Positions 40,435-63,934 of a stretch of DNA of 64,000 nucleotides are shown piece after piece. Source of the DNA: a virus; the IMG/VR virus record IMGVR_UViG_3300032213_001813, positions 62,001 through 126,000 of that record; one strand, written 5' to 3'. The translations under genes were made by a program, and so were the position numbers. The notes beneath the pieces are model-generated. The model had not been told where the DNA came from and made no database searches. It worked only from the letters and a program-made list of their open reading frames with translations. The number at the start of each line of letters is the position of its first letter. The first letter of the stretch is position 1.

Positions 40435-42036
40435 ATGAAAGAATATAATGTTGCATTAAAAGCCGGAGTAGATTACGATGGATTTTGGGAAGATATGGAG
40501 ACCGAAAATGATGGACTCCTATACATTCCAAATCGTAAGGTAGAGTTTACAAATGAAAGACCTTCTTCTCTTCGTCAATGTTGGTATTTGCTGACAGATG
40601 AAGAAGCAGAATCACTAAGAGGAGATGAAAGAGTATTTTGTGTAGAGATACCACCCGAACATAGGGATGATATCGTAATGGGGTTTAGAGCAACTCAAAT
40701 CGCAGACTTTACCAAAACCACATCAGATAGTGGGGCATTTACCAATTGGGGTTTAATTCGTTCATCAAATACAACAAACGTTTATGGTACTGGTACAACT
40801 ACCGCATTAAACTACGATTACACATTGGATGGAACTGGTGTGGATGTGGTTATTCAGGATAGTGGATTACAAGTTGACCATCCCGAATTTACGGATGTCA
40901 ATAATAATACTAGAGTCCAACAACTAAATTGGGGTACATATAGTGGTGGGGCATTTACACAAAACGCAAATCATTATAGAGATTACGATGGACATGGAAC
41001 TCACGTAGCAGGTACTGCTTGTGGTAAAACATATGGTTGGGCAAAGGGAGCACAAATATATTCTCAAAAGTTAAGTGGATTAGAGGGAAGTGGTGATAGT
41101 GGTACTGGTATTAGTATTACTTACGCATTTGATGCTATTAAGACTTGGCATAGTTCTAAGGCGGGAGCTAGACCTACGGTGGTTAATATGAGTTGGGGAT
41201 ATGGTACATTTTACAATACCGTAACCTCATTAACTTATAGAGGTACAACATATTCGGATGCTAACACAACTGGAAACTCAAGTTATCGTTTAACTAATTA
41301 CGGATTATACCCATCTTCTGGTGCATATGGGGGATACACTTATGTTACCAATGTTAGAATAGGTTCGGTAGATACTGATATTGAAGAAATGATTGCGGCT
41401 GGAATTGTAGTTTGTATAGCAGCTGGTAATCGTTCTCATAAAATCGATGTTAGTGGTGGTTCAGATTATAATAACTATGTAAGTACCGACCAGGGTACTA
41501 AATACTACAATAGAGGTTCATCTCCTTATAGTGATAATGCATTTATGGTAGGTTCTATGGATAGTACTACATTTAGTGCAGAATTTGACCAAAAGGCAAC
41601 TTATTCCGAAACTGGACCAGGTGTTAATATTTGGGCACCTGGTACTGATATTATGAGTGCTACATCAAATACAAACGCATTTAGTGGACAGAATTATCAT
41701 TTGAACGCATCCTTTAAGCAAGTTAATATTAGTGGTACATCAATGGCATCACCGCAAGTAGCTGGAGTGGCTGCATTATATTTACAAAAATACCCAACAG
41801 CAACACCCTCATATACTAAATTGCAGTTACAATTGGCTACGGGTAATAAAATATACACTACGGGGGTGAGTATTGATTATTCGGATAGTAGAAGTTTATT
41901 AGGTTCATATCAATATGTATTATATAGTGCATTCCAAGCAGAATCATCAACTTCTCCATTGTATACTGTACAACCCGATTTGGTATTTGGAGGTACTAAC
42001 ATATCATTTGGTGGTGCTGGACTTAGTTTTGTATAG
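40435..42036 (+). CDS. Subtilisin-like serine protease (S8 family)
   Basis: A 533-residue protein with an intact catalytic triad: Asp142 in VIQDSGLQVDHP, His187 in DGHGTHVAGTA, and Ser436 in SGTSMASPQVAG; the oxyanion Asn is Asn332 in AAGN. There is no signal peptide, and residues 1-120 form an N-terminal region that is not a standard propeptide. The last 75 residues form a short beta tail. Placed straight after the fibre genes, it is probably a virion-associated protease that cleaves host surface proteins or processes fibres (inference). Confidence 0.92.
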   Translation: MKEYNVALKAGVDYDGFWEDMETENDGLLYIPNRKVEFTNERPSSLRQCWYLLTDEEAESLRGDERVFCVEIPPEHRDDIVMGFRATQIADFTKTTSDSGAFTNWGLIRSSNTTNVYGTGTTTALNYDYTLDGTGVDVVIQDSGLQVDHPEFTDVNNNTRVQQLNWGTYSGGAFTQNANHYRDYDGHGTHVAGTACGKTYGWAKGAQIYSQKLSGLEGSGDSGTGISITYAFDAIKTWHSSKAGARPTVVNMSWGYGTFYNTVTSLTYRGTTYSDANTTGNSSYRLTNYGLYPSSGAYGGYTYVTNVRIGSVDTDIEEMIAAGIVVCIAAGNRSHKIDVSGGSDYNNYVSTDQGTKYYNRGSSPYSDNAFMVGSMDSTTFSAEFDQKATYSETGPGVNIWAPGTDIMSATSNTNAFSGQNYHLNASFKQVNISGTSMASPQVAGVAALYLQKYPTATPSYTKLQLQLATGNKIYTTGVSIDYSDSRSLLGSYQYVLYSAFQAESSTSPLYTVQPDLVFGGTNISFGGAGLSFV

Positions 42037-61585: not shown

Positions 61586-62101
61586 ATGTTACCATTAAAA
61601 GAAGCAATAGCAGAAAAACATTCATTGGCAGAAAAGATGCCATTTAATCAAAAGATGTTTAGAGGTGAGTTAAATAACGAAGAGTATGTAAACTATTTAA
61701 CACAACAATACGCAATTTTCAATACATTAGAAAAGAATCCACTACCACATCCATCTTTGAATAGAAAGGATTTAGTTGAAGCAGATATTGATGAATTGGT
61801 AGGTGAGGATTTCATTACTCCATTACTATTGGGTACTGCTCAATATTGTGATTACCTAAATACATTAACGGTAGAAGAACAACAACCACATATATATCTT
61901 AACTACCTAGCTATTATGTTTGGTGGGCAGATGATGAAGGAGAAAACGCCGGGTAGTGGTAGAATGTATGAGTTTGAGGATATGAGAGAGGCAGCGGGGA
62001 GTATTAGAGCAATCCAAAAAGATGAGTGGGCTGATGAAGCAAACAAAGCATTGGATTATAACATAGATATATTAGATGAACTACACCGAATATTTGGATG
62101 A
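61586..62101 (+). CDS. Heme oxygenase
   Basis: Cleaves heme to biliverdin, CO and ferrous iron. The proximal-ligand segment AIAEKHSLAEKMPFNQKMF (His12) and GELNNEEYVNYLTQQYAIF match the HO-1/HemO family, and HIYLNYLAIMFGGQMM is the distal helix with its Gly pair over the heme. At 171 residues it is shorter than typical bacterial enzymes (about 200-240). The next gene, overlapping by 26 bases, is a bilin reductase, so the biliverdin is probably passed on. Confidence 0.88.
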   Translation: MLPLKEAIAEKHSLAEKMPFNQKMFRGELNNEEYVNYLTQQYAIFNTLEKNPLPHPSLNRKDLVEADIDELVGEDFITPLLLGTAQYCDYLNTLTVEEQQPHIYLNYLAIMFGGQMMKEKTPGSGRMYEFEDMREAAGSIRAIQKDEWADEANKALDYNIDILDELHRIFG

Positions 62102-62717
62102 GTTAGCAGATAGGTTCTTATCCGTAATGAAACACTCACCTAATTGTAAAGTACTACCTACGGAAGATTTTGGGTGGGTGAATCATCGTTTTGAATCTGA
62201 TGTGTATAGAATGGCACACGTTGAAAGATATGGTGATAGGGCAATTGAGGTACTACACGTTACCACATTCCCACACCCAACATCACCAGAACCTATATAC
62301 GGATTTGATGTCATAACTACTAAATCAGGTGTAACTGGTGTTTATATGGATTTATCACCCGGCATTAAGGAATATAACTTTGATGAAGGTATAGATTTTA
62401 ATGGGAGAAAACCACTACCGCAATGGGCAACTGTCTTTTCGGATAAATTTATTATGATTAAACCCGAATCGGATAGTGAGTTTATTAGGTTTTGTAGTTG
62501 GTCCTTAGAAAAGTACAAATCGTTTTTGAAAGATGGGTTATATTTAAAAGAAGAGGCGAGTGATATTAATAAAGTTATTGATATCCAAAATCGTTATTGT
62601 GAAGTTCAAGCATCAAATCCTCGTACCTTTGGAGCATTGAAAGCAAAAATAGGAGAGGAAAGAGCAAGATACTTTATGGAAAAAATATTATTCCCTAAAA
62701 TAGAAAACAATAATTAG
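62076..62717 (+). CDS. Ferredoxin-dependent bilin reductase (PebS/PcyX/PcyA family)
   Basis: A 213-residue reductase of biliverdin. FGWVNHRFESDVYRMAHVE, AIEVLHVTTFPHP and PIYGFDVITTKSGVTGVYMD followed by LSPG are the core of the family. His61 and Asp78 are 17 residues apart, like catalytic His88 and Asp105 of PcyA. Product (phycocyanobilin, phycoerythrobilin or another) cannot be read from sequence. The gene overlaps the heme oxygenase, as in the ho1-pebS pair of cyanophages. It needs a ferredoxin, which is not seen in the window. Confidence 0.87.
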   Translation: MNYTEYLDELADRFLSVMKHSPNCKVLPTEDFGWVNHRFESDVYRMAHVERYGDRAIEVLHVTTFPHPTSPEPIYGFDVITTKSGVTGVYMDLSPGIKEYNFDEGIDFNGRKPLPQWATVFSDKFIMIKPESDSEFIRFCSWSLEKYKSFLKDGLYLKEEASDINKVIDIQNRYCEVQASNPRTFGALKAKIGEERARYFMEKILFPKIENNN

Positions 62718-62725
62718 ATTACAAT

Positions 62726-63277
62726 ATGAACAAAGTACCATTAGGAGAAAAAACTTATTGCTACGAAGAATTTATAACAAAAGAACAGCAAGACGAACTA
62801 TATAGTTGGGTATTTAATAGTTTTCCTTGGATGAATTTTGCCAATCCTTGCAACGATGAAGAAGACCAGATGGATAATTCGGTTAGACATTTTGCTAGGA
62901 TAGATTTACTACCAACAATACCACCACTATTTTGGGATGTACATGATAAGATAGTAGAGTTAGAAGGTATAAATCCCGTTATAGAAGCACCCCAGAATGG
63001 ACATTGGGTTGGGTTAACTGGTAAAGAAGCTAGAGTAGAACCACATACTGATTGGAACGGAGAAGAGGAAGGGTGGTATTGTAGAAGATATAATTTATTA
63101 GTATCACTGCCAACGGAAGGTGGGCAACCATTGTACGGAGATGAGGTACTGAATGTAAAAGAAAGAATGTTATGGAGGTGTGATGCTGGTTTAGTTGAGC
63201 ATTCATCCATACCAAACGAAGGTAATAGATTAAGAGCTAATATTTCATTTGGTTTCTTAATTCCTGTTGAAAAGTAA
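62726..63277 (+). CDS. 2-oxoglutarate/Fe(II)-dependent oxygenase-like protein
   Basis: A 183-residue protein with EPHTDWN giving the H-x-D iron ligands, and VEHSSIPNEGNRLRANISFG supplying the distal His and the Arg that binds 2-oxoglutarate. The double-stranded beta-helix core fits. Similar oxygenases are common in T4-like phages of marine and fresh waters; substrates are mostly unknown. Confidence 0.82.
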   Translation: MNKVPLGEKTYCYEEFITKEQQDELYSWVFNSFPWMNFANPCNDEEDQMDNSVRHFARIDLLPTIPPLFWDVHDKIVELEGINPVIEAPQNGHWVGLTGKEARVEPHTDWNGEEEGWYCRRYNLLVSLPTEGGQPLYGDEVLNVKERMLWRCDAGLVEHSSIPNEGNRLRANISFGFLIPVEK

Positions 63278-63862: not shown

Positions 63863-63934
63863 CGCGGGGAGGTTGTTGGTCACCCACCGGTCTCATAAGC
63901 CAGGTTTACGGCAGTTCGATTCTGTCCCCCGTTA
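63863..63934 (+). tRNA. tRNA with CAT anticodon (Met/fMet-like or Ile2)
   Basis: A 72-base tRNA-like sequence. The acceptor stem CGCGGGG (63863-63869) pairs with CCCCGTT (63927-63933) except at the first pair, which is C-T. The anticodon loop is CTCATAA with anticodon CAT at 63893-63895. The T stem GGCAG/CTGTC encloses TTCGATT. The D arm is short (GGT/ACC likely) and the anticodon stem has one mismatch. An unpaired first position is typical of initiator tRNA. No CCA is encoded. A scan with tRNAscan-SE would settle identity. Confidence 0.75.

Follow-up and report, generated by a model that had tools for sequence, protein, structure and literature searches.

A gene pair for a heme oxygenase (HO) and a ferredoxin-dependent bilin reductase (FDBR) is confirmed in a phage of a probable Bacteroidota host. 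The pair appears to encode a two-enzyme heme-to-bilin pathway, co-inherited as a cassette by large T4-related phages of freshwater Bacteroidota, and we put the probability of this reading, with a PcyA-type product and a benefit from heme breakdown, at about one in two. The HO would bind heme via His12 and open it to biliverdin, freeing iron and CO. Host ferredoxin would feed the FDBR, which would reduce the biliverdin, most likely by a PcyA-type reaction towards phycocyanobilin (PCB). The gain for the phage would be heme breakdown, through iron release and heme withdrawal, with the FDBR clearing biliverdin, and not a light-harvesting pigment. The window, which is the whole 64,000-nucleotide stretch of DNA analysed, is part of a 188-kb IMG/VR record of the phage (G000) and holds the following features of the cassette:

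61586-62101, plus strand: HO (PF01126), short version, 171 aa; from Pfam, AlphaFold2 and Foldseek
61619-61621, plus strand: codon of HO His12, the proximal heme ligand (human HO-1 His25); from alignment with HmuO and HO-2
61901-61915, plus strand: HO distal helix N106-Y107-L108-A109-I110; from sequence alignment
62076-62101, plus strand: 26-bp overlap of the HO and FDBR genes; from ORF coordinates
62076-62717, plus strand: FDBR (PF05996), PcyA/PcyX branch, 213 aa; from Pfam, PHROG 7278, AlphaFold2 and Foldseek
62217-62225, plus strand: FDBR H48 and E50, equivalent to Synechocystis PcyA His74 and Glu76; from alignment
62256-62258, plus strand: FDBR H61, equivalent to PcyA His88; from alignment
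62307-62309, plus strand: FDBR D78, equivalent to PcyA Asp105; from alignment

The two genes overlap exactly where a preliminary description of this DNA had placed them, and the overlap, which is present in most related loci too, suggests that their translation may be coupled. The assignment to HO and FDBR made there is borne out by strong profile and fold matches, and the motifs that it had named (EKHSLAE, FGGQ, PIYGFD and LSPG) are each found in the translations. The HO scores 50.9 bits (E 2e-13) against Pfam Heme_oxygenase, where the cut-off is 23, and its AlphaFold2 model (pLDDT 95.8) matches all-helical HO structures in Foldseek with a TM of about 0.85. The FDBR scores 65.5 bits (E 7e-18) against Pfam Fe_bilin_red, with a cut-off of 31, and gives an E-value of 2e-22 against PHROG 7278; the fold closest to its AlphaFold2 model (pLDDT 89.7) is that of PcyA, with a TM of about 0.84, the PcyX entry 5owg being a truncated model. 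Both models were built from alignments of phage relatives. The Pfam score and the PcyA fold place the reductase within the FDBR family.

The gene at 62726-63277, 3' of the FDBR gene, was considered as a cassette member and rejected, having no Pfam match and not being found at that place in locus L002. Its translation has an HxD...H...R pattern resembling a 2OG-Fe(II) oxygenase. The alaS gene of three-gene cassettes was found in none of 12 records.

The active-site residues His74, Glu76, His88 and Asp105 of PcyA are all present in the FDBR. H61 and D78 are indeed spaced as in PcyA, as had been pointed out before, while the alignment of H48 and E50 with His74 and Glu76 had been missed. These residues, including the Glu, are kept in every member of the lineage. 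Among the best 80 phage loci of the first viral scan, the Glu76 position holds Glu in the group of the window and Asp in all others, including Mosig and PcyX EBK42635. Glu76 is specific to PcyA, is needed for 18-vinyl reduction and is missing from PcyX and pre-PcyA (PMC10151467), and the FDBR of the freshwater phage CB_2, which is without the PcyX Asp, yields phycocyanobilin in vitro (PMC11480375). Because the four residues are kept and the CB_2 enzyme makes PCB, PCB-type chemistry is predicted for the FDBR, and its product would be of the PCB type and not PEB, although the FDBR has not retained Asp220 and Val225 of PcyA. NCBIfam models give the FDBR 84.9 bits for PcyA compared with 16 for PebB and 15.4 for PebA, and PebS and HY2 are weaker fold matches than PcyA.

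That the FDBR makes phycoerythrobilin in the manner of PcyX is rather improbable. This would agree with the phmmer scores, which favour PcyX (65.5 bits) over PcyA (52.2 bits), and with the Asn-Pro at PcyA positions 219-220 that is common to the FDBR and PcyX. Both points weigh against the PcyA-type reading, as does the NCBIfam PcyA score, which is well below the equivalog cut-off of 206. However, every lineage member has Glu in place of the PcyX-specific Asp (Asp55), the nearest fold of the modelled FDBR is PcyA, and PcyX is a separate, supported clade. The Asp-type FDBRs form this single clade (99/99) in a tree that is unrooted and has long branches; the Glu-type FDBRs fall there between it and cyanobacterial and cyanophage PcyA. 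The FDBR is on the PcyA/PcyX branch but outside the PcyX clade; the tree covered Asp-type and Glu-type FDBRs with cyanobacterial and cyanophage PcyA, and PebA, PebB, PebS and HY2 were judged by score and fold. A limited, pattern-based alignment scan found no relatives of the FDBR in bacterial genomes.

In the HO, the proximal His12 is invariant in alignment A6. The HO motifs named in the preliminary description are present, but the distal helix is not canonical: its sequence is NYLAIMFGGQ, compared with RYMGDLSGGQ in human HO-2. The residues Tyr58, Arg136, Gly139 and Asp140 of human HO-1 correspond to F45, N106, A109 and I110, and the canonical distal polar network of Tyr58-Arg136-Asp140 together with Gly139 is absent. 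All HOs of the Bacteroidota-phage lineage have F, N, A and I or L at these positions; a further group (L208-L212) retains the Tyr but shows Ala-Pro. Nearly all PcyX-associated phage HOs keep the Gly-Asp distal motif.

Oxygen activation is attributed to the distal polar network, and the substitutions G139A and D140A alter human HO-1, the latter giving a peroxidase (PMC5623701). An HO without a network held necessary for oxygen activation weighs against the proposed pathway, and the change of all four residues throughout the lineage would fit an HO that is no longer classical, which binds heme but works as a peroxidase, by another cleavage or by a new proton route, the FDBR then using either the HO product or biliverdin from a host HO. 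We consider this doubtful, since a plant HO that lacks Arg136 and Asp140 remains active by means of a replacement network (PMC7948506), and since the phage HO always adjoins an intact FDBR which needs biliverdin, while just 26 of the 199 host-order genomes were found to have an HO. Should the HO prove inactive as an oxygenase, the non-classical alternative would take over. The plant enzyme, GmHO-1, uses Ala149-His150 (PMC7948506), whereas at this place the phage HO carries Ala-Ile/Leu, which leaves it without the His, and it would therefore need another substitute. In the favoured reading the HO is expected to convert heme to biliverdin. A more far-reaching proposal, which is put forward tentatively, is that the HO of Bacteroidota phages dispenses with the canonical distal network in activating oxygen and, being co-inherited with the FDBR, gives a reduced bilin to a phylum whose sampled genomes yielded no FDBR; within it, the HO could rely on peroxidase chemistry, on a new proton route or on cleavage at another site.

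The HO-FDBR pair is found in at least about 16 further contigs of the Bacteroidota-phage lineage, the locus counts of the first viral scan being lower bounds; further relatives of both proteins were gathered by targeted scans. HO adjoins FDBR in nearly all loci. A single branch (97/81) in the HO tree splits the partners of Glu-type FDBRs from the partners of PcyX, and because this split matches the FDBR types, HO and FDBR have been inherited together. Both genes are under purifying selection, with dN/dS values of 0.07-0.19 in most comparisons and 0.40 in one HO pair. The conservation of the pair in many phage contigs together with the low dN/dS shows that the cassette is not a chance occurrence.

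The surroundings of the pair vary. A gene for a RyR-domain protein is directly 5' of HO in two loci (L006:4888-5454 and L007:4888-5448), and in some freshwater PcyX phages this place is taken by a ClpS adaptor gene (L030:5035-5340 and L034:5056-5352). GOLLD RNA and 23 tRNAs (L087:620-6505) start approximately 2.6 kb downstream of the end region of the window, and GOLLD or a tRNA/tmRNA cluster is near HO-FDBR in several related contigs (L004:10345; L202:568). The phage also has a tmRNA gene (L084:17460-17839) and, at 63863-63932 of the window, a tRNA-like sequence with a CAT-type anticodon loop that is not called by ARAGORN or Rfam. Four tryptophan halogenase-like ORFs lie 3' of the tRNA array (L087:7378, 8874, 14666 and 16247; G000 133378-143755), two of them tested by Pfam (PF04820) and two by sequence alone. 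Elsewhere in the window there is a long run of genes resembling glycosyltransferases and nucleotide-sugar enzymes (7048-31337), based on ORF translations and phage glycosyltransferase matches, and a gene for a subtilase-family protease (40435-42036).

Several findings make a freshwater Bacteroidota the very probable host, and probably one near Chitinophagaceae. SD sequences are usually absent in Bacteroidetes (PMC9723584). In G000 an SD motif is found upstream of 4% of the genes, compared with 3% in Flavobacterium phage immuto, 39% in Mel-JY01 and 37% in P-SSM4, both recorded from cyanobacteria, and 67% in Mosig, the last from few genes. The 16 other lineage contigs have SD motifs at 4 of 174 genes, while PcyX-phage loci have them at 373 of 736, a comparison in which some contigs are near-copies and the Fisher p-value is nominal. 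In addition, the phage has a complete TonB-dependent receptor with a carboxypeptidase-regulatory domain:

L089:4586-7840, minus strand: TonB-dependent receptor

This receptor occurs in two related phages (97% and 39% identity) and is 60-65% identical to sequences in freshwater Bacteroidetes/Chitinophagaceae genomes; its 79 matches are nearly all from Bacteroidota. The Bacteroidota host named in the preliminary description is thus upheld by SD depletion and the receptor, but the promoters on which it had been based add modest evidence, Bacteroidota-type sites being modestly enriched in the phage.

A cyanobacterial host, with the bilin serving phycobilisomes, was raised by the tail sheath, for which the top isolate match (50%) is Mel-JY01, a phage recorded from Microcystis elabens. 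This explanation is hardly tenable and was rejected on the low SD usage of G000 compared with Mel-JY01 and P-SSM4 and on the Bacteroidota receptor in the phage and its two relatives. Tail sheaths of Flavobacterium phages are moreover nearly as close (46%), and in Mel-JY01 (PP395634.1, L091-L094) 15 promoter sites of Bacteroidota type lie between genes, against 0.7 expected. Mel-JY01 also carries rpsU, and it may in truth infect a Bacteroidota that was present in the culture, although it uses SD motifs.

FDBR was found in none of 396 sampled Bacteroidota genomes. In a drawn sample of the host order, a PHY domain above cut-off is present in 23 of 199 genomes (about 12%). HO and PHY are often on the same contig there. 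No PHY was found in the seven freshwater Bacteroidota genomes with the nearest receptor genes, which may be incomplete; the eighth genome tested, Mucilaginibacter, has two. In the phage, no PHY domain, phycobiliprotein, ALA synthase match or Fer2 ferredoxin was found, the ferredoxin search covering the Fer2 domain, and this argues against light harvesting and a general phytochrome role. The lack of a Fer2 ferredoxin also counts against the proposed pathway. In some PcyX phages a gene of about 100 aa 5' of HO was considered as a ferredoxin and rejected after being identified as ClpS.

A role in providing bilin as chromophore for a bacteriophytochrome of the host, one of those suggested in the preliminary description, is accordingly weakened and now seems quite unlikely. 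The host-order genomes with PHY and HO, several with both on the same contig, would be in line with it, but neither the phage nor the seven freshwater genomes have PHY. Bacteriophytochromes generally use biliverdin, which requires no FDBR. Redox protection by bilin antioxidants together with the phage SOD, also suggested there, has lost ground as well and is very unlikely: an Fe/Mn SOD gene is present in the same phage (54318-54974), but it is about 6.6 kb upstream of the pair, outside the cassette, and no linkage or shared context was found. With FDBR missing from the sampled genomes of the phylum and phytochromes scarce in the host order, the phage probably profits from breaking down heme as such. 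The simplest role left would be that the HO opens heme and sets iron free while the bilin reductase acts on the product, and a role in iron supply is compatible with the data. 2OG-Fe(II) oxygenases were considered as a common iron-using partner and rejected, because three are present in G000 and none was found in the related phage records, which also weighs against the heme-breakdown reading.

Cassettes of hemO-pcyA/X (-alaS), the CB_2 phage PcyA included, have been described in aquatic phages (PMC11480375), and phages that infect non-photosynthetic bacteria, freshwater phages among them, have been published as carriers of HO-FDBR pairs (PMC11480375; AX clade PMC10151467). Since pelagiphage PcyX and the PcyA of the Methylocystis phage CB_2 are published, the kind is already known. 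CB_2-type cassettes, compared by description only, resemble the present one in that HO adjoins FDBR, in their non-photosynthetic hosts and freshwater origin, and in an FDBR without the PcyX Asp that makes PCB (PMC11480375); CB_2 is however assigned to Methylocystis and not to a Bacteroidota, and here there is no alaS and the HO distal network is lost. Mosig pelagiphage and marine PcyX (PDB 5owg) have the HO-FDBR pair and the Asn-Pro in common with this phage, with 29-33% identity between PcyX and the FDBR, but PcyX phages differ by Asp at the Glu76 site, a Gly-Asp HO and SD usage. Cyanobacterial and cyanophage PcyA share His74, Glu76, His88 and Asp105 with the FDBR and are its top fold match, whereas the identity is about 26%, Asp220 and Val225 are lacking, the host is non-photosynthetic and the FDBR is paired with HO. 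The pre-PcyA enzymes also belong to the PcyA branch, come from non-photosynthetic organisms and are often found with HO, but as defined in PMC10151467 they lack Glu76 and His88, and they occur with bilin-binding globins; neither holds for this FDBR, in which both residues are kept. No report of HO-FDBR pairs in Bacteroidota phages was found in the literature searched, which excludes most subscription papers and preprints. The Bacteroidota-phage lineage, its Glu-type FDBR and an HO that has naturally lost its distal network look new.

On the question of what HO-FDBR pairs are for in phages whose hosts do not photosynthesise, the authors of a previous study state that only speculation is possible (PMC11480375). 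The present lineage puts this question in a phylum where no FDBR was found, and light harvesting drops out as an answer. It also offers a natural HO lacking distal residues that are regarded as critical. Both the mechanism of the HO and the benefit of the cassette to the phage are testable here.
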